Origin: Litoreibacter roseus
Lineage (GTDB): Bacteria > Pseudomonadota > Alphaproteobacteria > Rhodobacterales > Rhodobacteraceae
Direction: 5' to 3'
Assembly (NCBI RefSeq): GCF_009811795.1
Contig: NZ_BLJE01000006.1
Coordinates: 62,001 to 126,000 of the forward strand
DNA length: 64,000 bases
Part shown: positions 7,672 to 63,346 of the stretch, in pieces
Numbering within the stretch: the stretch's first letter is position 1
How the letters are laid out: every line of letters starts with the position of its first letter
Translations under genes and position numbers: made by a program
The notes under the pieces: generated by a model
What the model saw: the letters and a program-made list of their open reading frames with translations, nothing else
The model's database searches: none
Told to the model about the DNA's origin: nothing

Positions 7672-8313
7672 CTACAGTGTGCCTTCAAGATCCTTTGGGT
7701 ACTTGCTGCCCAACAGTGCTGAAAGCGCGGTAACAAGCATGTGCCCCGTCGTCATCGGCGGGTCCGATTGCGTGCAGATCTGATCCTCGTTGTGAAGGAT
7801 CACGAACCCGTGGATCAGGCTCCAAACGGCATTGATCCGCACGTCGAATTCTGGGGCACGCTGGGTCACATCAGGCAAGGTTGCACGGACAGCTTCCTCA
7901 AGAAGAAGATAGGCCCGACGCGACTGACTGGTCGGATCATGCGACTTCGGCGGTGCGGTGTCCTTGTCGAACATGACACGCAACATCACCGGATAAGCAA
8001 CGCCAAACTTCAAATAGGCAATCGCCATATGACACAGGATGTCCGTCGGCGAAGGCGATGCGCCTGCCTTTGCGGCCTCAAGCGCATCTGACAACTCTCG
8101 GAAACCATCTGATCTGCATTCTGCCAAGAAGGCGCTCAGCGTCTTGAAGTGATGAACGGGGGCGGCGTGCGACACCCGCGCTTTCCGCGACAAAGCTCGC
8201 AATGAAAACCCGCGCAGACCATCGGCCTCAAGCATCTCGCGACCCGCTGCGATCAGCACGTTGCGAAGGTCTCCGTGATGATACGGAGCGCGCTTATCGG
8301 AGAGGTCTGACAT
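7672..8313 (-). CDS. TetR-family transcriptional regulator
   Basis: A 213-residue regulator. The N-terminal helix-turn-helix starts at YHHGDLRNVLIAAGREM and continues FSLRALSRKARVSHAAPVHH; the C-terminal half is a helical ligand domain of the TetR_C_33-like type. The frame is open upstream to 8370. I choose ATG 8313, which leaves 10 residues before the YHHGDLR motif, as is usual, and keeps the palindromic operator at 8339-8353 outside the coding region. It is divergent from the exported protein at 8405 and most likely controls it and itself. Confidence 0.88.
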   Translation of the reverse strand: MSDLSDKRAPYHHGDLRNVLIAAGREMLEADGLRGFSLRALSRKARVSHAAPVHHFKTLSAFLAECRSDGFRELSDALEAAKAGASPSPTDILCHMAIAYLKFGVAYPVMLRVMFDKDTAPPKSHDPTSQSRRAYLLLEEAVRATLPDVTQRAPEFDVRINAVWSLIHGFVILHNEDQICTQSDPPMTTGHMLVTALSALLGSKYPKDLEGTL

Positions 8314-8338
8314 CGACATACCGCATCTTACCATCAGA

Positions 8339-8353
8339 CTTGTCATTGACAAG
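8339..8353. promoter_or_regulatory. TetR operator candidate
   Basis: CTTGTCA-T-TGACAAG, a perfect 7-bp inverted repeat around one base. It lies between the divergent TetR and 8405 genes and covers the -35 element of the rightward promoter. A half-site-like ACTTGTCA recurs at 8372-8379, across the -10. Confidence 0.7.
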
Positions 8354-8374
8354 ATGGGTTTGAGCCCCATAACT
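8346..8374 (+). promoter_or_regulatory. Promoter of the exported protein gene at 8405
   Basis: Consensus TTGACA (8346-8351), a 17-base spacer and ATAACT (8369-8374), followed by the ribosome-binding site GAAGGA and ATG at 8405. The -35 lies inside the palindrome at 8339-8353, so binding of the adjacent TetR protein would block it. Confidence 0.6.
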
Positions 8375-8404
8375 TGTCACTGCAAAGATAGAAGGAACTG
8401 ATCG

Positions 8405-8989
8405 ATGAAGTCTACGCTCACACTCGCCTGCGCCCTCGCGTCTCTCGCCGCAGAATCCCCCTCGACAGCTGAAACGACCCAAACCGATCTGATTGGTGTT
8501 TGGCAAACCGGCCTGTCCGAAGAACAGGCGCCCGGCGGTGGCCCGAGCGCCTATTTGCGGCAGACGACGATCTTCACGGAGACCCGGCAAGACATTCGCG
8601 CCGAGATTTTTGCCGACGCGGACGGCCAGATGCCGATATTCACATATGCGTCTTCCGGTCCCTACACGCCTGTCGGTGCCTCGGATATTGTCCCCGGTGC
8701 ATTGAACCTGGAATTGGTCAACGAGACATCGGAGGTGACAATCTACATGGACGTTCCGGATTTGATGGCGGCCGTTGGCATGGGGGACTGCGATCTGATC
8801 CTCAATCAAGCAGTGGACGTCAGGGACTGTATCTCGGGCCCACCGTTTCTGGTGACGGACTGTACCGACCTGGATCTGGTGCTGGTGGATGAGGGCGGTT
8901 CACGTCTGCGATTTGGTGATCAGAGCGTCGACCGCTGCATCTCAAGACCGACAGAACTCGACGACGCGCAGTTCTTCAAGGTCGAGTAG
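8405..8989 (+). CDS. Exported protein with APCDD1-like features, unknown function
   Basis: A 194-residue protein with a short Sec signal peptide (MKSTLTLACALASLAAES, likely cut near residue 22). The mature part has the pattern LIGVWQTG, YLRQTTIFTET, ADADGQMPIFTYASSGPYT and a late LRFGDQSVD. This resembles bacterial members of the APCDD1 beta-rich family, but that is recalled from pattern and not confirmed. Three or four cysteines in the second half suggest disulfides. It is divergent from a TetR gene, with a palindrome over its promoter, so it is probably inducible. No enzymatic motif is visible. Confidence 0.7.
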   Translation: MKSTLTLACALASLAAESPSTAETTQTDLIGVWQTGLSEEQAPGGGPSAYLRQTTIFTETRQDIRAEIFADADGQMPIFTYASSGPYTPVGASDIVPGALNLELVNETSEVTIYMDVPDLMAAVGMGDCDLILNQAVDVRDCISGPPFLVTDCTDLDLVLVDEGGSRLRFGDQSVDRCISRPTELDDAQFFKVE

Positions 8990-9059: not shown

Positions 9060-9188
9060 CTTATCCATCCTATCCCGCCCGCTAAGGTCAGCAAAGCGGG
9101 ACGAAGCATGGGTAATCGGGCTGACCGGGTTGATGGGTCAGGCTCTTGATAGAGTTGCAGGATGTTTCTGCAATTTGAGGAGAACGAA
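9060..9188 (+). ncRNA. Candidate 5' structured RNA of the IS110 element (bridge RNA?)
   Basis: The leader upstream of the transposase folds by eye into two stem-loops: 9073-9101 (TCCCGC/GCGGGA with a long loop) and 9121-9141 (CTGACC/GGTCAG with a 9-base loop). IS110-subgroup elements are known to encode their guide (bridge) RNA in this position. Sequence alone cannot show the RNA is made, and in IS1111-subgroup elements it would lie on the 3' side instead. Confidence 0.35.
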
Positions 9189-10522
9189 ATGGATTACTAT
9201 GCGGGTTTGGATGTGTCGTTGCGGTCGGTGGCTGTCTGTGTGGTTGACGCTGATGGCAAACACATCTTCGAGCGTTCTGTCGCTTGCGAGATTGAGGATA
9301 TCTTGGTCTGCTTGCGTGATGTGCCCGCTGGTCAGTGTCGGGTTGGATTTGAGTCCGGTGCAATGAGCCAATATCTTTACTTTGGCCTGCAGGCCGCTGG
9401 CTTTGATGTTGTCTGTATGGAAGCACGACAAGTGAACGCCGCCCTTTCAGCCATGCGCAATAAGACCGACAAGACGGATGCGCGTGGGATTGCACAGGTG
9501 CTGCGGTCAGGATGGTACGGCAAGGTCTTTATCAAGAGCCGCGAAGCGCACGCGCTAAGAGCGCTCCTGAGCAGTCGCAAGGCGGTTCAGAAGAAATGCA
9601 TCGACCTGGCCAATGAAGTTCGTGGCTTGTTCCGGGTCTTTGGCTTGCGCTTACCACCCCGTGTCGATCAGGGGTCATTCGATGAGCGGGTCCGTCCGTT
9701 GATCGAGGCAGACCCGGATTTGTCTCATGCACTTTTACCACTGCTAGATGCGCGGGCTGTGCTTTACAAAACCTATCGCGAGTTGGACCGCCGTGTGAAG
9801 CAGGCGGCAAGTCATGACGAGATCTGTCTGCGCTTCATGGCGATCCCCGGTGTCGGCCCGATTGCGGCCCTGACGTTCCGTGCGGCTGTCGATGATCCAG
9901 CGCGGTTTACCAGCTCTCGCACCGTTGCCGCTCACTTCGGCCTAACCCCGCGACGATATCAATCCGGGGAGATGGATAACCCAGGCCGCATCTCGAAGGC
10001 AGGCGACAGAGATGTACGTGCGACGCTCTATGCTGCGGCCAATGCGATGATGATGCGCTCTGTTGCGAGTTCCGAAATCAAGAGCTGGGGCCTACGCCTG
10101 ATGCGCCGCAAAGGCCGCCGCCGTGCTCTGGTCGCCGTTGCCAGAAAGCTGGCCGTCATCATGCACCGCATGTGGGCTGACAACACCGAGTTCCGTCATG
10201 GGAAAATGGAGGGAATTGCATGACCTGATACCCCTTCCTGAAGCCAAAGACGGGATCGTCCCTCACCGGACGAGGTCTGTGCCCTCTCGGGCATCTGAAC
10301 ATGCCCTGCCTGGTAATAGATGACGCCGAAAAAGCTCACTGCGCAACTTGAAGCGCGAGACTAAGTGGGGCGCTCCATACCCAATCCGACACATGCATGC
10401 AGCGGTCCAACCGAACCGGACCATCAATGACTGCGAAGAGAAGTGTGACCCGGATGAGAGACAACAATCCCTACAGCACGGAAATGAAAAGATGAAATGA
10501 ACTTGACCCAAACGCCCGATTA
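9113..10522 (+). mobile_element. IS110-family insertion sequence (ends tentative)
   Basis: An intact IS110-type transposase gene is flanked by non-coding stretches of about 199 and 358 bases. A 9-base inverted match, TAATCGGGC at 9113-9121 and its complement at 10514-10522, could be the subterminal repeats seen in the IS1111 subgroup. GGGTCA also recurs just inside both copies. That would make the element about 1.41 kb. The right copy also forms part of a terminator-like hairpin, so the ends are uncertain. No target duplication is expected for this family. Confidence 0.5.
9189..10223 (+). CDS. IS110-family transposase (DEDD recombinase)
   Basis: A 344-residue recombinase that appears intact. 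The N-terminal RuvC-like DEDD domain shows D8 in YAGLDVS, E55 in GFESGAMS, and D94/D97 in KTDKTDARGIAQVLRSG. The C-terminal Tnp_20 domain shows MAIPGVGPIAALTFRAAVDD and GLTPRRYQSGE, then GRISKAGDRDVR, where S269 is the expected catalytic serine. Start ATG 9189 is chosen over a frame opening at 9162 because AGGAG lies 8 bases upstream of it. Members cut and join DNA guided by an element-encoded RNA. Confidence 0.95.
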   Translation: MDYYAGLDVSLRSVAVCVVDADGKHIFERSVACEIEDILVCLRDVPAGQCRVGFESGAMSQYLYFGLQAAGFDVVCMEARQVNAALSAMRNKTDKTDARGIAQVLRSGWYGKVFIKSREAHALRALLSSRKAVQKKCIDLANEVRGLFRVFGLRLPPRVDQGSFDERVRPLIEADPDLSHALLPLLDARAVLYKTYRELDRRVKQAASHDEICLRFMAIPGVGPIAALTFRAAVDDPARFTSSRTVAAHFGLTPRRYQSGEMDNPGRISKAGDRDVRATLYAAANAMMMRSVASSEIKSWGLRLMRRKGRRRALVAVARKLAVIMHRMWADNTEFRHGKMEGIA

Positions 10523-10581
10523 GAGAAGCGGGCTTTCAACCGGGCAAGGTCAATGGCTGCTTCTATGCGATACCCAAAAGT
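10224..10581. other. Gene-free stretch 3' of the transposase
   Basis: No convincing coding frame. Several short inverted repeats occur near the start: CGTCC/GGACG at about 10258-10273, TGCCC/GGGCA at about 10278-10291 and GGGCAT/ATGCCC at about 10288-10305. They could be the structured RNA of an IS1111-type element. The far end carries the hairpin described at 10511-10534. Confidence 0.5.
10511..10534 (-). terminator. Possible terminator of the five-gene exported operon
   Basis: GCCCG and CGGGC arms (10514-10518 and 10529-10533) around a 10-base loop, about 50 bases past the stop of the last gene on the minus strand. On that strand the hairpin is followed by GTTTGGG, a weak tail. Part of it coincides with the putative right repeat of the insertion sequence. 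Confidence 0.4.
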
Positions 10582-11016
10582 CTACGCCGCGAATGCAATC
10601 CATCGTCCGGCCACGAGCCCGGCACACCATAGGCAAATTGATAGCGAGGCGGTCACCGGACGCATGCTCTTGAACGCAGCGAACAGCGCGGCGTTTGCGC
10701 CTGCCAGTAGGATGAGAGCAAACTTGATCAGAACAGCGGGGTTTTCAGCGTAGCGAGTGGCTTGAACAGCAAACAACAGCACGCCCGTGGTTGCTGCTGC
10801 GCCGAAGCCAAGTAGCGCAATGCGGCTGAGCTTCACCACCGCATCGTCGGTCCTTTTCAACCTCATGACCCGCAAGTCGGCCAGGATGATCGGCGCGATC
10901 AGAAAGCTAATTGAAAGGATATGCATAGCCGAGATGAGCGGGTAGATTGGTCCGCCGACCCAATCCGCAAGTGCTGACGCCTCCAGCCATGCAAGCACAG
11001 GCGTCAGCTCAAGCAC
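10582..11016 (-). CDS. DUF6644-like integral membrane protein
   Basis: A 144-residue, four-segment membrane protein. The order LAWLEASALADWV, MHILSISFLIAPIILADLRVM, LLGFGAAATTGVLLF, the AENPAVLIKFALILLAG segment and a final GRWIAF matches what I recall of the DUF6644 family. The start is taken at GTG 11016, which overlaps the upstream stop by 13 bases; a longer reading from 11082 would lie wholly in the previous gene and adds no family-like sequence. Function is unknown. Such proteins sit next to DUF6152-type exported proteins, as here. It is the last gene of the operon. Confidence 0.72.
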   Translation of the reverse strand: MLELTPVLAWLEASALADWVGGPIYPLISAMHILSISFLIAPIILADLRVMRLKRTDDAVVKLSRIALLGFGAAATTGVLLFAVQATRYAENPAVLIKFALILLAGANAALFAAFKSMRPVTASLSICLWCAGLVAGRWIAFAA

Positions 11017-11501
11017 CCGGCATCCTCTGTCTGCATTCGTCCACGACGGACAATGGCCTCGCCGTCCGCCAGACGCAGCCACTGACCGCGCAATTGATGC
11101 GGGGGACGGCAGTTTTGATAGACGATGGTTTCGATCCTGCCGCCGACCCGGATGCGACCTTGAAGGTTGAAAAATAGACGGATCGGTGGGTACTCCACGT
11201 CGATGATCCGACCCAAGTCTTCGGCACGAACATCAAGAATATCGGCAAACTCTGCACCCTCCCGCAAATCAGTGGGAGGTCTGAGTTCCGCATCCACCCG
11301 CATTTCGATCACCGGGTGTGGACGGCGGAACGACGCATCGATGACGTCACCAGCGACATAGATCGGGCGTGCGCTGTCATAAGATCCAGTGAAACCATGG
11401 TGGGCCGGGCTGGGCCTTGGAAAAGCCGTAACCCCGATCAGCCCACCGGCGAATGCACGTCGTGTCAGTATAACGTGGTCTAACCAATTTGAGCGGCGCA
11501 T
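11004..11501 (-). CDS. Exported DUF6152-like protein
   Basis: A 165-residue protein with a possible twin-arginine signal (LTRRAFAGGLIGVTAF, then AHHGFTGSYD). The mature part, ARPIYVAGDVIDASFRRPHP followed by a conserved beta-rich run, fits the DUF6152 pattern (an AHH motif near the cleavage site, then G-x-V-x-x-x-x-x-x-PH). It starts 9 bases after the hydrolase stop and overlaps the DUF6644-like gene. No catalytic residues are apparent. A role in the envelope together with its membrane neighbour is an inference. Confidence 0.68.
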   Translation of the reverse strand: MRRSNWLDHVILTRRAFAGGLIGVTAFPRPSPAHHGFTGSYDSARPIYVAGDVIDASFRRPHPVIEMRVDAELRPPTDLREGAEFADILDVRAEDLGRIIDVEYPPIRLFFNLQGRIRVGGRIETIVYQNCRPPHQLRGQWLRLADGEAIVRRGRMQTEDAGCLS

Positions 11502-11510
11502 TTTCGACCG

Positions 11511-12350
11511 TCAGTCGGTCAGGAACGCATCTAGCGCTGGCCGGAACACATCGGGTCGTTCCTGATACGCTGGATGTGTGGCACCGGGCACAACAAGCAA
11601 ATGTGCAGACACCATTTGCCGTCGTGCTTCGTCCGCATCCGCCACTGAAATGAATGGATCGTTGTCCCCAACCGTCACGAGAACGGGGATGGCGATCTCT
11701 CCAATCCGACCCTCCGGATGCCCGTCGGCGCTGCTGTCTTTCCACATTGCGGCAGCCTGGGTCACCATGCGATCAAAGTCGCCATCGGGGTTCAATCGGT
11801 CATAGTCCTCGACGATGAAACGGAAATCCCCTGAGCCAAGCGACTCTCGGTTCCAGGTGTCGAATGTGCCCCACATCCCGCGGCCATTCTCTGCCGACCA
11901 TCGCGCACCAATAGTTACCAGTTTCGAGACGCGCGGTGAAGGGCGAGCCGCCATCCGGTAGCCCGTGATCCCGCCATCCGAGAATCCAATCACAGGGCAG
12001 GTTTCAATCGCGAGGGCATCCAACACGGCGTGGGCATCATCTTCCTGTGCGGCGTAGGATAATGGGATGTCACCGAGGGACGATCTTCCCATCCCCCGCG
12101 TATCGACCAGCACAACCTGGTAACCGCTAGCAACGAGATGATCCCGCAGCCCGTCAAACCAGCCGGAATGACCAAGCCCTCCATGCAAGAGCAGGATTGG
12201 TGGGCCTTCCCCGTGCGTCTCGTAGTATATGTCGGAGCCCGCACGGGAAACGGTCGCTGTCTTCTGCGCCAGGGCCGTGCGCCCCGCCATAAGTGCCCCT
12301 GCGGTTGTCGCCACCCCGAGCGCTAGAAGGTTTCTGCGATTGAATTCCAT
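11511..12350 (-). CDS. Tat-exported alpha/beta hydrolase
   Basis: A 279-residue hydrolase with a twin-arginine signal (FNRRNLLALGVATTAGALMA, cleavage near ALA-Q). The oxyanion-hole motif LLLHGGLGHSGW, the nucleophile elbow GFSDGG (serine), VTVGDNDPFI (acid) and GATHPAYQE (histidine) give a full catalytic triad. Two ATGs abut (12353 and 12350); the second has the better 5-base spacing from AAGGAG. It is similar in layout to lactonase- or haloperoxidase-type hydrolases; the substrate is unknown. Export by Tat in an operon of other exported proteins points to a periplasmic reaction. Confidence 0.9.
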   Translation of the reverse strand: MEFNRRNLLALGVATTAGALMAGRTALAQKTATVSRAGSDIYYETHGEGPPILLLHGGLGHSGWFDGLRDHLVASGYQVVLVDTRGMGRSSLGDIPLSYAAQEDDAHAVLDALAIETCPVIGFSDGGITGYRMAARPSPRVSKLVTIGARWSAENGRGMWGTFDTWNRESLGSGDFRFIVEDYDRLNPDGDFDRMVTQAAAMWKDSSADGHPEGRIGEIAIPVLVTVGDNDPFISVADADEARRQMVSAHLLVVPGATHPAYQERPDVFRPALDAFLTD

Positions 12351-12364
12351 CATTCACTCCTTCT

Positions 12365-13222
12365 TCAATCGGCCATCACATCATCGCGGCGTTGCGCGAT
12401 CACATCGAGGAATGCGGGAGCGTCGATATTGGCAATGGGCAGACGACCCGTTGCGGGACGCCGAATGTCGAAGCTTTCCACATGCGCGATCAGGTCCGCA
12501 TTCTCAGTCGGCGCGCCTTCGGTGTTGTAGAGCTGGAAGTTGGGGTAGATCGGGGCCACGCTGTCGTAGTCGGCATAGGCAGTGAGACCGACGTTCAGGA
12601 CCAGCGGCAGGTCAGGGCGAATGATCTGCTCAACCACCTCCCAGTTTTCACCTTGTGGGCGGGTCAGCAACGTGAAGATTTCGCCATGGCGAGCAATACG
12701 CAGGTCGACCGGGCCGGTCGGCGCAGGAAGGATCTGCAGTGTCGATAGCGAATTGGTCGTTGTTTTCAGCTCGTAGTGTGGCTCACCGGCTGGGGCCGCC
12801 GTACCGATTGAAAAGAACAGCCAGTTTTCCTGCCCCGGTATCCATGTGGCAGCGGAAACCTCACGCGGCGCACGAATGAACAGCCCTGCAAGCGAGAAGG
12901 AGGTCTGCGGCAAGTCGGCCTGGGTGCCGGTCACCTCGATCCGCGTGGTTGCGATGAAATCACCGCTGATCTGGTGGTAGAGATGACCGGCTTGATTATC
13001 TTCGAACCAGCCAGAGGATACCGGTTGCAAGACAAGCCTGCCGCCCTCGACCCGCGGCTCTTGCCATTTGCGCGTAAAACCATCGGGCAGATGTTCCGAC
13101 CAGGCATCGAGTGCCGAAGCGTCATCAAAGGTCGTGCTCAGGTCAGCGATGTCATCAGCCAACGACGCAGTCGCCGACGCGCAGAGAGTTGCGGCGAGCG
13201 CCGCCGCGGAAATTAACTTCAT
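12365..13222 (-). CDS. Exported concanavalin-like (DUF1349-type) protein
   Basis: A 285-residue protein with a Sec signal peptide (MKLISAAALAATLCASATAS, then LAD). The mature part is one beta-sandwich-like domain: TRKWQEPRVEGGRLVLQPVS, GHLYHQISGDFIATTRIEV, AGLFIRAP and LNVGLTAYADYDS follow the DUF1349/laminin-G-like pattern that often binds carbohydrate. ATG 13222 is preferred because GGAG lies 6 bases upstream, while a TTG at 13234 would only lengthen the signal. It lies 11 bases before the hydrolase gene. Its ligand is unknown. Confidence 0.75.
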   Translation of the reverse strand: MKLISAAALAATLCASATASLADDIADLSTTFDDASALDAWSEHLPDGFTRKWQEPRVEGGRLVLQPVSSGWFEDNQAGHLYHQISGDFIATTRIEVTGTQADLPQTSFSLAGLFIRAPREVSAATWIPGQENWLFFSIGTAAPAGEPHYELKTTTNSLSTLQILPAPTGPVDLRIARHGEIFTLLTRPQGENWEVVEQIIRPDLPLVLNVGLTAYADYDSVAPIYPNFQLYNTEGAPTENADLIAHVESFDIRRPATGRLPIANIDAPAFLDVIAQRRDDVMAD

Positions 13223-13284
13223 GGGAGTCTCCAATCATATAGAAAAGGAAGGGTTGGCCATTCGAACAGCCGCCCCGCCGCGGA

Positions 13285-14610
13285 TCAGTTGTTCACGACA
13301 ACAAGTGAGTGAGCGCCGGGTCCGGTCTCAACCGCGTAACCGGTCGGCACCAAGCGTGGAGCTTCGCCCACATCACGCTGCACCCGCCAGAACTCCAGCG
13401 CGCTCGCGCGCGGCTCCGGCCCTTCGTACTCAAATATACCAGCGACGACGTATCGGTCGGACGCATCGAACGCGACGCCCTCTGGCAAGATGCCCAGCAT
13501 CTCCCAGTCACCGGCGTGCTCCATCAGGCCGGTGACTGCGTCAAACTCCACCAGTGTCAGGCTCGACAAGGAGTGGCCTGGCTCACCTTCAGGGATCCAG
13601 GTCTGGCCAAGATTGAGTGTCACAATCATCGTGCCGTCGTTGGAGAAGGCGATGCTTTCTGCATGTTGCGGTACGCTGACACCACCCATGCTGAAGTGCC
13701 GCGGTTCTGCATCTTCCGGCCCAGCAAGCCGGATAGAAGTTAGGGTTGATGGCGGTGCATAAGTGCCGTTCCGATCCGGCCCAAGATCAGGACCCCATCC
13801 CAAGTCATTGGTCACGAAATGCCGCCCATCTCGCGAAAACTTGCCGGACATTGGCCATTTGTTTGTGGCCACCGAGTTCCCCCACTGGGAGATCCCCGAA
13901 ACGCTTCCGTTCTCGGTACGATCAACGCGATAAAACTGGACCTGATTGCGCAGGTTAAGCGTGACTGCGACGACATCTTCGGTGGGATGCCATTCGGCGT
14001 GATGTGGCAGTTGTCCTCCGTCGAACAGCTCGGGCATCTCGGATACGTTCTGAAGCGGGAATTGCTGCGCCTCGCCGAATTGGCCATCTGAAAAAGTCAC
14101 AAAGGTCAGTGGGCTCCCTCGTGTCTTGGTCGCCAGCACGAGCGTCCGGCCATCCGGGCTGACAGAGACACCAAGGGGTCGGTTTCCGACTTCGACCTCA
14201 TCAATCACCCGTGGGGCCGAAAGATCGCTTACATCAATCGCGCGCAAAGTCGTGCCAGGTTGCAGATCACGGATGGTGACATCGGCCTCTTCCTGAGGGG
14301 TCGCTGTCTCGGCCACAAAGATCGTATTTCCGTCGAGGCTATGCGCGATGGAGTAGACCGGATTGATGACCGAGTTGGATACTTCGATCCGCCCCGTTGG
14401 TTCGGTTGCAACCAAGGGTAACCCAATCAATGCCAGCTCGTCCGAGCCGCGCTTCTCACCAATCTGCCCGTCAATATAGGCATAGGCACGCATGTCCCCG
14501 TCCGAGATCGCGGCGATGTAGCGTCCCTCAAAATCGGGCGGCTGCTGCGCATAAGCAGGCAGTGCAAGAATGGCGCCTGCAATGCTGGCCGTAAGTGGGA
14601 AGCGGGTCAT
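13285..14610 (-). CDS. Exported beta-propeller protein (lactonase/YncE-like)
   Basis: A 441-residue protein with a signal peptide (MTRFPLTASIAGAILALPAYAQ). Repeated blade motifs such as SIAHSLDGNTIFVAETA, GVSVSPDGRTLVLATKT, HHAEWHPTEDVVAVTLN, GKFSRDGRHFVTNDLG, AESIAFSNDGTMIVTLN and GVAFDASDRYVVAGIFEYEG indicate a seven-bladed propeller. The start ATG 14610 has a strong AAGGAGG site; a longer frame to 14640 lacks one. It is the first gene of the operon and is divergent from a LysR gene. It could be an enzyme or a binding scaffold; no catalytic signature decides. Confidence 0.82.
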   Translation of the reverse strand: MTRFPLTASIAGAILALPAYAQQPPDFEGRYIAAISDGDMRAYAYIDGQIGEKRGSDELALIGLPLVATEPTGRIEVSNSVINPVYSIAHSLDGNTIFVAETATPQEEADVTIRDLQPGTTLRAIDVSDLSAPRVIDEVEVGNRPLGVSVSPDGRTLVLATKTRGSPLTFVTFSDGQFGEAQQFPLQNVSEMPELFDGGQLPHHAEWHPTEDVVAVTLNLRNQVQFYRVDRTENGSVSGISQWGNSVATNKWPMSGKFSRDGRHFVTNDLGWGPDLGPDRNGTYAPPSTLTSIRLAGPEDAEPRHFSMGGVSVPQHAESIAFSNDGTMIVTLNLGQTWIPEGEPGHSLSSLTLVEFDAVTGLMEHAGDWEMLGILPEGVAFDASDRYVVAGIFEYEGPEPRASALEFWRVQRDVGEAPRLVPTGYAVETGPGAHSLVVVNN

Positions 14611-14690
14611 GGTGTCCTCCTTGACGAAATGAATATGCACGACAAGTTGGGTGATGAATGCGCCCCGACAATGTTGGTTTTCGATATGTT

Positions 14691-14709
14691 CTATAAGGAA
14701 AGGTTATAG
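14691..14709. promoter_or_regulatory. LysR-type operator candidate
   Basis: CTATAA-GGAAAGG-TTATAG, a perfect 6-bp inverted repeat containing a T-N11-A core. It ends directly at the LysR start codon and overlaps its ribosome-binding site (AAGGA). The position suits autorepression and control of the divergent operon beginning at 14610. Confidence 0.6.
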
Positions 14710-15552
14710 ATGTTTTCGGTGATGGATTATCGCTGTGTGGTCGCTTTGAGTGAGGAGAAGAGCTTCTCTCAGGCGTCCGAGGTCCTGGGCCTCTCGCAAC
14801 CCGCGCTGACCGCGCGGCTCCGGCGTATTGAGGAAAACCTTGGTGTTCGCCTGTTCGAGCGTGGCAGGCGCGGAGCCGAGGCGACGCCGGCGGGTGATGC
14901 CTTCACCGAAGCCGCGCGGCGGATCATCGACATGGCTGATCGCTCAGTCGAGGTGGCACGGGATGCAGATCGCGGCCTTGGCCAACATCTGCGGATTGGA
15001 ATGACCCAAATCGCCGCTGTTCAAGTTGTTGTTCCAATCCTGAAGGCGTTTCGGGAAGAGAACGCCTTTGCCCGTGTAAGATTGACCGAGAGCATATCTT
15101 CCACATTGGAAGCGCAGGTTGAACAGAACCTGATCGATGTCGCTTTCCTTCATCCGCCAATACATCAAGCTGGGCTTTCCGAACTCCCGCTTATGTCACA
15201 ACGCCTTGTGAAATACGATGCGATGGCCTCGCCCCATGATCGGCCACCCACCATTCGATATACGCGGCGCGATGCACCTGTTTTGGTTGCAGAGCTTGAT
15301 CGTCATGAGCCGGGTGGCGTCGAAGCGGATGCATTGGCGGAAGTGGATACAGCGATCGGCGCTATCGTGATGTCCCATGCAGGATACGGACCGTTCGTCG
15401 TACCTGAAGGTTTCCCCAGCCCATTCAAACGGATAGAGACTTGTCTGGAGGGCGCGCCACTCAAAACAGAGCTGGGGACGAGCATCGTTTGGCGCAGCCT
15501 CGATCGCCGTCCAATGGTGCGGGCACTGATCGAGATCTGCAGAAGGTCGTGA
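14710..15552 (+). CDS. LysR-family transcriptional regulator
   Basis: A 280-residue regulator. The N-terminal winged helix-turn-helix reads SFSQASEVLGLSQPALTARL, then RRIEENLGVRLFERGRRGAEATPAG. The remaining 190 residues form the substrate-binding-protein-like sensor (GQHLRIGMTQIAAVQVV onward). It is divergently placed 99 bases from the five-gene exported operon, the usual geometry for a LysR regulator and its target. A nearby ATG at 14722 is an alternative start. Confidence 0.94.
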   Translation: MFSVMDYRCVVALSEEKSFSQASEVLGLSQPALTARLRRIEENLGVRLFERGRRGAEATPAGDAFTEAARRIIDMADRSVEVARDADRGLGQHLRIGMTQIAAVQVVVPILKAFREENAFARVRLTESISSTLEAQVEQNLIDVAFLHPPIHQAGLSELPLMSQRLVKYDAMASPHDRPPTIRYTRRDAPVLVAELDRHEPGGVEADALAEVDTAIGAIVMSHAGYGPFVVPEGFPSPFKRIETCLEGAPLKTELGTSIVWRSLDRRPMVRALIEICRRS

Positions 15553-15740
15553 AGCTAGGGCACCCAGTTGAGGTCAACAAAACTGCCGTTGGTGAATTGT
15601 GCAGCATCTGTTGGAATGGGCTCTCTACGGACATTCTCCGCACCGCCGCACCTGCCAAACTCGATTGCTTCGGGCAGGCCAGATGGGAGGTGTTCTGACT
15701 GGTCCTGCATTGGCGTCCTCGGTCCATGCTGCACTGCGGC

Positions 15741-15804: not shown

Positions 15805-16128
15805 ATGGACGCTGTCCGTACGCTTATTGCCCAAAACTCATTGATTGCATCGCGCTTGGGCGCAATCGAAAATCTTATTGTAAATCGCGGGATCGATCTT
15901 GGTCCGGTAACGGATCCTTCGCCGGATGGTGGGCTTGGTGGCATCGTCACCGGCGGGTTCGGCGGGATCCTGGGTGGGGGCATTGGTCCGATTGCGGACC
16001 CGTCGCCCATTGATCTGGGCAAGCTCAGCCGCGTGCAGCTTGAGACTCGGTTGGCCGATGTGGAGCTCACCCGCAAAAAGCTCGATGCGGTGGAAGGCAT
16101 GTTCAAGGAAGCGCTCGACAAACTCTAG
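15805..16128 (+). CDS. Small protein with glycine-rich core, unknown function
   Basis: A 107-residue protein I do not recognise. It has three parts: an amphipathic N-terminus (MDAVRTLIAQNSLIASRLGA), a core at about residues 38-72 that is mostly Gly and Ile/Leu (GGLGGIVTGGFGGILGGGIG) bracketed by two DPSP motifs, and a charged helical C-terminus (KLSRVQLETRLADVELTRKK) that could form a coiled coil. It has a strong AGGAGG site 5 bases before the ATG and its own intrinsic terminator, so it is a real, separately terminated gene. The next gene encodes a radical SAM enzyme. Confidence 0.75.
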   Translation: MDAVRTLIAQNSLIASRLGAIENLIVNRGIDLGPVTDPSPDGGLGGIVTGGFGGILGGGIGPIADPSPIDLGKLSRVQLETRLADVELTRKKLDAVEGMFKEALDKL

Positions 16129-16203: not shown

Positions 16204-17886
16204 ATGTTTGATGCGCCGCACCCGAAGTCGTTGACGACGCTTTTTGTGGGATTTCAGGATCAGGACAATCTGGGGCTCCGATACCTCATGGGGGCAGCCA
16301 AGGCGGGCGGTCACCGGGTCGGGATCGAAACCTTTTCAACCGATGCCGACGCGTTGGTCGCCCGTGCGCTGAAAGAGCGGCCGGATTTCATCGGCTTCTC
16401 CCTGATTTTTCAATACATGACTGGCCAGTTCGCTGAGGTCATAGACGCTTTGCGCAAGGCGGGCGTCACGTCTCATATCGCGGTGGGCGGTCACTTCCCG
16501 AGCTTTGATTATGAGACCGTACTTTCTGTGGTTGAGGGTGCGGACAGCGTGATCCGGTTCGAGGGCGAGGCCACGCTGATGGATTTGCTCGACCGGTTGG
16601 GGCAGGGGCAGGACTGGCGCGATCTTCCCGGGCTGGTGGCGCGGCTGGAGGACGGCAGCCTCAAGGCCAACCCCTTGCGCAAGCAGATCATGGATCTTGA
16701 TACGGTGCCATGGCCCGAGCGCGCCGATATCAGCTATGAGGCCGCGGATCAGCCAACGGCGGCGATCCTGGGATCGCGCGGGTGTCCCTGGAATTGTGAC
16801 TTCTGCTCGATCCGTCCGTTCTATGAGGCGCAGGAGGGCAGCTTGCGGCGGCTGCGCAGCCCCGAGGACGTTATGGAAGAGATGCGCCATTTGTACCATG
16901 CGCGCGGTGTGGCGCTGTTTTTATTTCAGGACGATGATTTTCTGGCGACCGGAGCGCGGGCGCGCAAATGGGCCGGTACGCTGTCGGATCTGATTGTCGA
17001 CAGTGACATTGGCGGGAAGGTCGCGTGGAAGATGTCGTGCCGGTCCGATGAGTTGCGGCCCGATATCATTGCCCGGATGCTGAATGGCGGTCTGACCCAT
17101 GTCTATATGGGCGTGGAGAGCGGCGACGTTCAGGGGCTGAAGAACATGAAGAAGATGATGTCGCCGCAAAAACATATCGAGGCGGGGAACATGCTGCGCG
17201 CTGCGGGGCTGTCCTTTGATTTCGGTTTCATGCTGATGGATCCGTGGTCCGATATTCGCATGATCCGCTCCAACATCGCGTTTCTGGATGACTTCGTGGG
17301 GGACGGCTGGGCTGTGGCCGGGTTCTGCCGGATGCTGCCCTATTCCGGCACGCCGGTGGAGCGTAAGCTGAAGGCCGAGGGGCGCCTGACGGGAACGGGG
17401 TTTGAGCCGGATTACCGTTTCCTCGATCCCAAGCTTGATCGGTACTACGCTTGGCTGCTCGAGACGTTTCACACGCGCAATTTCACAAATCAGGGCCTTG
17501 CGCATTTGTTGCGGGGGATGATCTTCGAAAGCAGGCTGCAGTCGCCCCAGACCCGTTGGATGACCGAAGAGGAAACGCGCTGGCTGCAATACATCACCGC
17601 ACGGGCGAACCAATCGGCGTTCGTGACGCTTGGGCAGGCGTTGGATTACATCGATCGCACGCCGCTGGACGAGATCGTGACCTATGGCGGCTTTTTAGGG
17701 GATCTGACTCAGCGCGAACTGGCAGAGCAGCACCACCTGACCCGGCAGCTTGAAGCCTTCTGGTCAGAGCCATCCCGCCAGATCCGCAGACGGGCGCGTC
17801 ACGATGCGTGGCTGGGCGGCGGGTTCGAACGCAGTTGGACCCATGCGGAGCCCAGTTGGGAGACCCAAGGGATCGGCGTGCGCTGA
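16204..17886 (+). CDS. B12-binding-domain radical SAM protein
   Basis: A 560-residue enzyme. Residues about 10-140 form a cobalamin-binding-like Rossmann domain (GVTSHIAVGGHFPSFDYE). Residues about 190-420 hold the radical SAM domain with its cluster motif SRGCPWNCDFCSI (CxxxCxxC) and the later GVESGDVQGLKNMKKMM. A 140-residue C-terminal region follows. Members methylate or rearrange unactivated carbons, or make tetrapyrrole or lipid products; the substrate here is not evident. It starts 75 bases after the small Gly-rich gene, past that gene's terminator, so co-transcription would need readthrough or an internal promoter. Confidence 0.9.
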   Translation: MFDAPHPKSLTTLFVGFQDQDNLGLRYLMGAAKAGGHRVGIETFSTDADALVARALKERPDFIGFSLIFQYMTGQFAEVIDALRKAGVTSHIAVGGHFPSFDYETVLSVVEGADSVIRFEGEATLMDLLDRLGQGQDWRDLPGLVARLEDGSLKANPLRKQIMDLDTVPWPERADISYEAADQPTAAILGSRGCPWNCDFCSIRPFYEAQEGSLRRLRSPEDVMEEMRHLYHARGVALFLFQDDDFLATGARARKWAGTLSDLIVDSDIGGKVAWKMSCRSDELRPDIIARMLNGGLTHVYMGVESGDVQGLKNMKKMMSPQKHIEAGNMLRAAGLSFDFGFMLMDPWSDIRMIRSNIAFLDDFVGDGWAVAGFCRMLPYSGTPVERKLKAEGRLTGTGFEPDYRFLDPKLDRYYAWLLETFHTRNFTNQGLAHLLRGMIFESRLQSPQTRWMTEEETRWLQYITARANQSAFVTLGQALDYIDRTPLDEIVTYGGFLGDLTQRELAEQHHLTRQLEAFWSEPSRQIRRRARHDAWLGGGFERSWTHAEPSWETQGIGVR

Positions 17887-61466: not shown

Positions 61467-63346
61467 CGCGGTGCCGAACCCTCGGCCAGTTGGCGTTCGA
61501 TCAGGGCAACGGCTGCCGCATCGATTGACACTTCGTGGCGCGCGCGGACGGCGTCCCCAAAGATCTGAAACACGTCTGATGCAAGGCTTTGGCTCGCCTG
61601 CTGATTGAACTGTGCCAAGAACCCTTGTGCCAGTGGATCATCCGGGTCCGGCTCGCCAATGTTCGTGAGGTTGACCAGTGCCACCTGCGTCTGATCAGCG
61701 GCGACCAGCGGTCCAGTGTCTGTGGCACCAAAGATAAGACTAACAAGGGTCGACGGCGCGCCAGCGAGGGTGGACATGCGGGAGGTCTCGGCTTCGACAC
61801 GCGGCTCAAGGCCAAGATCCTCAAAGCTTTCCCCGGCCTCAAGCCGATCCACAAAGGAGGTCGCGAGCTCTTCCAAGCGGGTACGGGTTTGGGTTGTGTT
61901 CCACGCCTCCGCGACGTCATCACGGATCTCATCAAGGGGCGGTACGGTCGGTGGTACAATTTCATCAAGTCGCATAGCGAAGATGCTGCCGTCGCTGAGG
62001 CCGATCACTTCGGGGAAGTCGTCTTCCCGCGCCTGAGTGGCGGCGCGGCGGAACTCGGCGTAGCCTGAAATTCGCGCTGTGGAGTCCGCGCTATAGTCAA
62101 TGGTTTCAACCTGCATGTCGGTTTCTGTGGCAAGTTCCTCAAGGGTCACGCCGCCGGCAAGAAGGTCGTCAATCGCCTCGACTTCGCCCTCAATGGCACG
62201 CCGTGCGCTGTCCAATGAGGTTTCTGCCAGTAACTCGTCCCGCACATCTTCAAACGACCGCGAGGTCGCTTCCAACACCGCGTTGACGCGGTAGAGCGCT
62301 GGACCAAAGGAGGTCTCGATCGGATCGGTCAGACCCGGTTCGGTCAGACCAAAAACCGCATCTGCAACCGGGCTCGCCAGATCCGAGCGGGCCACTTCCC
62401 CCTGATTGACGTCATTCAGCGTCAGGCCCCGTTCTTCAACCAAGACTTCAAATGTTGTCTCACCCGCCTCAATCCGGGCCTTTGCGTCAGCCGCGGCTTC
62501 GACATCAGAGAACCCCAACCGTTCCACCAACCGGCGGGCGGGCTGGCTGTATTCACTTTCCCGATCCTCGTAGATGGCGCGAAGCTCTTCCTCGGGAACG
62601 TTGACCTCGGGCAGCAGCATCTCTGGCGTCAGCCATGCGTAGGTGATGCGTCTGATTTCCGGGCGTTCGAACCGGTCGCTGTTCTCCTCGTAGTACTCGG
62701 AGAGATCCGCGTCGGTCGGCTCGTCGTTTGGTGTGTCGAGCAAATCGGCGCCGAGCGGGGCCCATGTAAAGCCGCGACGTTCGCCGATGAATTCATAGAG
62801 GGTTTGGGCATGGGTTGGGTTTGCCGTCAGCCCGCCTGCGACTGCCTGCTGCAAAAGATCACGCGCGGCGGCGTTGCGCAGATTGTCTTCAAACTCGCGC
62901 GGGGTGAGGTTGTTTTGCTGGAGCGCAAATTCATAGGCATCGCGATCAAAACCGCCGCCCGGTCCCTGAAGCTGCGGAACCAGCTCCAGCTGACGCCGTA
63001 CTTCTTCGTCGCCAACGGATAACCCCATCACACGGGTCTCTTCAATTAAGGTGGCGTCCGCAACAAGACGGCTGCGGGCACGCCGGTCGATGCCCAGAGC
63101 CTGAATATCAGCCGCAGAAACAGGCTGTCCGATCTGCTGTTGGGTCAAGGCGATTTCCTGACGCAAGGCCCCCACATACTGATCGACAGAAATCTTTGTC
63201 TGACCGACGGATCCGACGCTGGAGATTGTTCCGCCAAGCCCGCTTGCGCCAAAGCCTGCAAGGCCCAGAATAAGTAGCACAAGGATCACCCAGACAAATG
63301 CTTTGGATGCGCTTTTGCCTTTTGGTTTACCGGTGTCCGTTGCCAT
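61463..63346 (-). CDS. PpiD-like periplasmic peptidyl-prolyl isomerase (SurA_N/PPIC)
   Basis: A 627-residue membrane-anchored foldase. The N-terminal anchor lies at about 16-36 (KAFVWVILVLLILGLAGFGA). SurA_N-like helices follow (VDQYVGALRQEIALTQQQIG, GVLSVGDEEVRRQLE-type segments), and a parvulin domain sits at about 270-370 (RRLVERLGFSDVEAAADAKA, FGLTEPGLTDPIETSFGPAL). The C-terminus is long and helical. It helps outer-membrane proteins fold, which fits bamA/skp elsewhere in the window. Its stop overlaps trpE. Confidence 0.9.
   Translation of the reverse strand: MATDTGKPKGKSASKAFVWVILVLLILGLAGFGASGLGGTISSVGSVGQTKISVDQYVGALRQEIALTQQQIGQPVSAADIQALGIDRRARSRLVADATLIEETRVMGLSVGDEEVRRQLELVPQLQGPGGGFDRDAYEFALQQNNLTPREFEDNLRNAAARDLLQQAVAGGLTANPTHAQTLYEFIGERRGFTWAPLGADLLDTPNDEPTDADLSEYYEENSDRFERPEIRRITYAWLTPEMLLPEVNVPEEELRAIYEDRESEYSQPARRLVERLGFSDVEAAADAKARIEAGETTFEVLVEERGLTLNDVNQGEVARSDLASPVADAVFGLTEPGLTDPIETSFGPALYRVNAVLEATSRSFEDVRDELLAETSLDSARRAIEGEVEAIDDLLAGGVTLEELATETDMQVETIDYSADSTARISGYAEFRRAATQAREDDFPEVIGLSDGSIFAMRLDEIVPPTVPPLDEIRDDVAEAWNTTQTRTRLEELATSFVDRLEAGESFEDLGLEPRVEAETSRMSTLAGAPSTLVSLIFGATDTGPLVAADQTQVALVNLTNIGEPDPDDPLAQGFLAQFNQQASQSLASDVFQIFGDAVRARHEVSIDAAAVALIERQLAEGSAPR

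Follow-up and report, generated by a model that had tools for sequence, protein, structure and literature searches.

The operon described here lies on contig NZ_BLJE01000006.1 of the alphaproteobacterium Litoreibacter roseus (assembly GCF_009811795.1), within a stretch of 64,000 nucleotides (positions 62,001 to 126,000 of the forward strand). This whole stretch is called the window, and all coordinates follow its own numbering. Between positions 10582 and 15552, five minus-strand genes, named A to E in the order of reading, diverge from a gene for a LysR-type regulator. The last two encode a small exported protein of the DUF6152 type (D) and a four-helix membrane protein of the DUF6644 family (E). 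Judged from genome sequences, D and E evidently form a recurrent two-gene module whose members travel as a pair, predicted to consist of a metal-binding protein with an N-terminal His and a membrane partner resembling CopD, in a CopC/CopD-like design. This predicted pair is the finding of wider interest; its tie to the function of the propeller protein A is something we infer. The locus as a whole is read, tentatively and with a little less than even confidence, as a LysR-linked, laterally moving, modular operon with D-E as the CopC/CopD-like metal pair.

The D-E pair and its predicted histidine start

A PF19649 search of 240 genomes of the class (Alphaproteobacteria) gave 30 genomes with one DUF6152 locus each. 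A same-strand E-family gene adjoins the DUF6152 gene in 29 of these 30 loci (the exception is L031), and the count was the same with both E models, one built from eight seeds, of which five came from these loci, the other from the three operon E proteins only. The D gene of the window (11004..11501, minus strand) belongs to a divergent DUF6152 subgroup, with HHGF in place of HHGW. It stays under the PF19649 cut-off (E-value 6.8e-5, 23.3 versus 27 bits), while the relative in the Kiloniellaceae genome (L022) passes (27.7 bits), and it was aligned with 16 DUF6152 proteins and the L022 protein.

In all 30 loci an Ala immediately precedes His-His at the expected end of the signal peptide, and position +4 is Trp in 29. 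Position -3 is Ala in 23 proteins, Val in 4, and Ser, Thr and Leu in one each. A hydrophobic signal stretch precedes His-His in every protein except that of L030, which the end of the contig truncates; the cleavage site was read by eye. An RR, as in twin-arginine translocation (Tat) signals, is present in 15 of the 30. All 30 proteins have a further His as residue 27 or 28 of the mature chain; it is residue 29 in the window, where the predicted mature chain (11402-11004, minus strand) starts with HHGF. Eight columns are invariant among 18 aligned members (from 16 of the 30 loci, L022 and the window), and they include the Ala, both His residues and the internal His. At the sequence level, with predicted cleavage, the mature N-terminal His and the internal His are those expected of a CopC-type histidine brace. 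N-terminal-His metal sites like those of CopC and YcnI show this pattern too.

The same position of the His, directly after the signal peptide, is described for N-terminal-His metalloproteins identified by signal-strapping (DUF4198, DUF6702, Ang-1, Ang-2), which belong to different families; DUF6152 is not mentioned in the main-text parts of PMC12537917 covered here. Binding of Cu and Ni is reported there for N-terminal-His proteins that are linked to membrane permeases. Searches of the literature by family name returned no mention of DUF6152 or DUF6644. In profile searches of the PDB, the three operon D proteins gave nothing at E-values up to 1, E nothing up to 10 and B nothing up to 0.1. SmtB and a cyclin were the sole results for the wider D profile (E-values 0.48-1.3) and were taken as chance matches.

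Comparison of E with CopD

E (10582..11016, minus strand) is read from the GTG at 11016 by choice; a GTG upstream at 11082 is open as well. It has no Pfam match of its own to PF20349 or PF05425 at E-values up to 1, so the DUF6644 label rests on the family built here, in which 11 of the 15 aligned members match PF20349 at E-values up to 1 (best 8e-9). The cut-off of the CopD family PF05425 is not reached by E of the window, and one of the 15 members matches the model, at 0.01. Among 32 sequences of the family, H32, G78, K98, W130 and G137 never vary, and R49 and R138 are kept in 31.

When the E profile was compared with a profile of 15 CopD proteins (hhalign), the probability was 66.9 (E-value 5e-5) over E columns 16-140, and 69.5 without the operon members. 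The controls stayed far lower: 0.2 for reversed CopD, 0.3 for reversed E, 1.1 for the best of 60 block shuffles and 0.1 for DctQ. E and CopD have an invariant His, Gly and Lys in common, and E aligns to the C-terminal half of CopD, with H32 and K98 placed on H154 and K230 of YebZ, both present in 16 of 16 CopD sequences. DUF2214, tried as another relative of E, gave two weak Pfam matches (best 0.0051) and an hhalign probability of 1.3 with one member.

PMC13344008 reports that a His in the CopD domain, which may or may not be the one aligned with E, matters for copper uptake by YebZ, and that the H295A variant of YcnJ acts like a deletion. In CopC-CopD systems (YobA-YebZ of E. coli; YcnJ with YcnI of B. 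subtilis), as in D-E, a small exported N-terminal-His protein is encoded beside a membrane protein, and in K-12 yobA stands directly before yebZ. The two differ in size, E having ~144 residues and YebZ 290. E may work like CopD, though it is not classed as CopD. The phrase "no known system", used for the operon in the initial annotation, is too strong for D-E, a recurrent module resembling CopC/CopD in design.

Several observations weigh against the metal-pair reading. The hhalign value for E and CopD is moderate and drops to 50.0 when YebZ is added. Single CopD sequences give at most 5.5, versus at most 3.8 for 12 unrelated single membrane proteins, so the signal lies in the profiles only. 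H135 of YebZ, also conserved in CopD, has no counterpart in E. The D profile (12 sequences) scores 0.3 against YobA, that is, no CopC homology is detectable, and on this value D was rejected as a CopC homologue. The AlphaFold model of mature D (three sequences) failed, with a predicted local distance difference test (pLDDT) score of 37.6. Around 20 of the 30 D-E loci, where 69 of 76 neighbouring open reading frames were scanned (the other 7, judged by eye to be shadow or mis-called frames, were excluded), no recurrent metal-related family was seen; no family matched more than two members, and one locus carries cytochrome bd genes. Finally, D-E accompanies A in few loci (see below) and thus may be only loosely linked to it.

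The lack of recurrent metal-related neighbours and the moderate E-CopD value would also suit a true pair with a non-metal role, in which His-His is there for folding, for docking at the membrane or for another ligand, and E is merely a CopD-like small four-helix protein. This is considered rather unlikely, since His1, His2 and the internal His are all among the eight invariant columns, and the CopD match is lost with the reversed, shuffled and DctQ controls.

Operon layout and gene families

The gene arrangement given in the initial annotation is correct: five minus-strand genes follow one another from A to E with distances of 62, 11 and 9 bases and then an overlap of 13 bases, and A is separated by 99 bases from the divergent LysR gene (14710..15552, plus strand; PF00126 2.2e-18, PF03466 2.1e-16). 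A (13285..14610, minus strand) is an exported seven-bladed propeller of the lactonase fold, which passes the Lactonase cut-off (PF10282, 23.8 versus 21.7 bits; the L022 relative, with 21.6, is just under). C (11511..12353, minus strand) is an alpha/beta hydrolase (PF00561 1.8e-19) with the triad-type motifs GFSDG, GDND and GATHP at residues 123, 229 and 257 and a Tat-like signal (weak PF10518 match, E-value 0.031); the other secretory (Sec) and Tat assignments were made by eye. B and D are both under their Pfam cut-offs, and E lacks a credible Pfam match of its own. B (12365..13222, minus strand) is an exported DUF1349-like protein of the concanavalin A (ConA)-like type (PF07081 2.1e-6, 27.9 versus 32.4 bits); its L022 counterpart passes with 33.9 bits. 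DUF1349 is not mentioned in the papers listed by a literature search.

By fold, the model of A (pLDDT 77.1, predicted template modelling score 0.83) comes nearest to 6-phosphogluconolactonase and the periplasmic gluconolactonase PpgL, with 12-17% identity. High scores are common to propellers in general, so a lactonase activity of A is at most putative. Taken with the Lactonase match, this fold suits an inducible periplasmic degradation of lactones or esters, with A as lactonase, C as esterase, B as binding protein and D-E as an incidental accessory. The triad motifs of C also fit, as does its best NCBIfam match, 3-oxoadipate enol-lactonase, though this match (75.8 bits) is far under the cut-off of 255.85. 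Such a pathway, in line with the lactone or ester turnover suggested in the initial annotation, is judged unlikely as the account of the locus. A was also compared with the copper propellers thiocyanate dehydrogenase and nitrous oxide reductase, but WD40 propellers with no relationship to them reach equal scores. In seven A relatives H305 and H434 are the sole invariant His residues, so the copper sites of these enzymes are not apparent in A, and the reading of A as a copper enzyme like thiocyanate dehydrogenase was set aside.

The LysR/propeller core

Eighteen A-type loci were compared: the window, L013 (same genome), L010-L012 and L014-L016 (family genomes), L018-L020 (plasmids), L022-L025 (a GTDB scan) and L066-L068 (class genomes). 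A divergent LysR gene stands next to A in 16 of them (in L022 it diverges from B, which is first there), and L018 has a TetR and L020 an AraC gene in its place. The LysR of L013 is distant (18% identity), and the LysR call in L067 is based on a 140-residue match. Over 14 loci the LysR and A distances are correlated (Mantel r 0.73, reached in 0 of 5000 permutations). According to tblastn with the window proteins, from which strongly diverged copies could escape (L014-L016 are moreover short contigs), B is present in five of the 18 loci (window, L010, L022, L023, L024), D-E in three (window, L022, L024) and C in two (window, L024).

All five families occur together in L024, in the same order and with a Flavodoxin_2 gene added between C and D, and four of the five in L022, arranged as LysR-B-A-D-E. 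The initial annotation had proposed a LysR-controlled operon that would be a chance assembly if the five families never co-occurred; a LysR-linked unit does recur elsewhere, though not as one indivisible pathway. From its gene content the operon is evidently real rather than a chance product, but modular, with a LysR/A core which B, C and D-E join in varied combinations. As an architecture it is nothing unusual, a laterally moved LysR divergon to which accessory genes belong.

Genes of the A family are rare and occur in 5 of the 295 family genomes and in 4 of the 385 class genomes, with the own genome included in both; B is found in 2 of the 385 class genomes, again including the own one. The A copy of L011 has internal stops. 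A second propeller of the family (L013, G000:C7:61596-62807; 39% identity) diverges from a LysR gene of another kind in the same genome. A cytochrome P460 gene (PF16694) follows the A relative in both L018, a cyanobacterial plasmid, and L067, an alphaproteobacterial genome, which are distant hosts. In L020 an aldo/keto reductase gene follows A, and in L023 an SBF-type transporter gene follows A-B. A B relative (57% identity) at 9047-9847 of L065 has no A relative within the 19 kb around it. Plasmids were considered as the vehicle of the locus and set aside: A relatives are found on 5 records and a B relative on 1, and among four examined, D-E was not found (tblastn) in the three carrying A.

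Candidate LysR operator

The inverted repeat TCTATAA-N7-TTATAGA (14690..14710), with perfect 7-base arms and a 7-base spacer, ends on the A of the LysR ATG. It is the perfect T-N11-A palindrome that had been pointed out at this start codon, and it recurs in relatives. A GATAA-N7-TTATC-like box is observed at the equivalent place before LysR genes whose products are at least 42% identical, perfect in L024, L023, L068, L014 and L015 and imperfect in L022, L025, L010 and L011. It was not seen at that place in L019, L016, L012, L066 and L013, which have more distant LysRs; the comparison covered the A-type loci other than L018, L020 and L067. The regulator, the divergent target and the box between them, as expected of a LysR divergon, are thus all found by sequence and conservation, and LysR probably binds at the T-N11-A box.

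Likely transfer and genomic setting

The block shared with L024 (10525..15623) is taken as the mobile unit. When window bases 1-30000 were compared with L024 (blastn), the identity was 94.7% over 11521-15623 and 80.9% over 10525-11405, with no other match. In bins of 200 bases (edge bins and the C/D junction bin, where L024 has its extra gene, omitted), the identity is 95.5-99.5% for LysR and A, 88-98.5% for B, 82-90% for C and 77-84.5% for D-E. pyrH, the sole core gene compared with L024, shows 78.4% DNA identity; thus LysR-A and a large part of B seem to have been exchanged recently, and C-D-E is about as diverged as pyrH.

The pyrH and frr genes adjoin without an insert in the L024 genome (L110). 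In two genomes of the same genus (L112, L116) the gene order is pyrH, the gene at 15805 and a radical SAM gene, so the part of the window that spans the TetR gene to LysR is additional. A occurs in 1 of 21 same-genus genomes. Together, these two observations support transfer, as suggested for the segment splitting pyrH from frr; the locus seems to be a recent acquisition of this genome.

An IS110-family transposase gene (9162..10223, plus strand; NF033542 1e-72) flanks the operon on the E side, outside the unit. Its proximity, the presence of A in a single genome of the genus and the lack of C, D and E in most A-type loci would fit a chance gathering of five genes with no common role beside the IS110 element. 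We hold this to be highly improbable: the same five families stand in the same order in L024, where C-D-E differs from the window about as much as the core gene does, and LysR, A, B, D and E are together in the Kiloniellaceae genome.

The same extra segment, after pyrH, contains a TetR gene and a gene for a 194-residue protein (7672-8989) whose start looks like a signal peptide and which lacks a credible match in Pfam. On the other side, a 107-residue protein with a Gly-rich middle (GGLGGIVTGGFGGILGGGIGPI) is encoded at 15805-16128, directly before a B12-binding radical SAM gene (16204-17886). This pair is kept in L112 and L116 (62.6% and 68.2% identity) and could be a peptide substrate and its modifying enzyme.

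Proposed mechanism and significance

For the tentatively preferred reading, with D-E as a metal pair, the following course is proposed, in which the identity of the metal, the direction of transport and the substrate of the operon are all put conditionally. LysR would switch the divergent genes by binding the T-N11-A box that lies at its own start codon. After cleavage of the signal peptide, D would start with His-His and could bind a metal ion, most likely copper(II) and possibly nickel, through the N-terminal amine, His1 and the conserved internal His. D may then exchange the metal with E, in the way known for CopD domains and their partners, the CopC-type domains and YcnI. The weakest steps are the last ones: D-E would supply or remove the metal for a reaction that A and B would perform in the periplasm, and C, with the flavodoxin-like protein in the sister operon L024, might act on the substrate or product.

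A broader claim, that DUF6152-DUF6644 is a widespread unnamed metal-trafficking system, made of an N-terminal-His protein unrelated to CopC and a minimal CopD-like protein, and here serves a metal-using propeller enzyme of the lactonase fold, is improbable in this full form. Still, DUF6152, present in 30 of the 240 alphaproteobacterial genomes sampled, and DUF6644, both of unassigned function, gain one concrete hypothesis. If it is true, another type of periplasmic protein would feed a CopD-like membrane protein, and would have been recruited by LysR/propeller operons.
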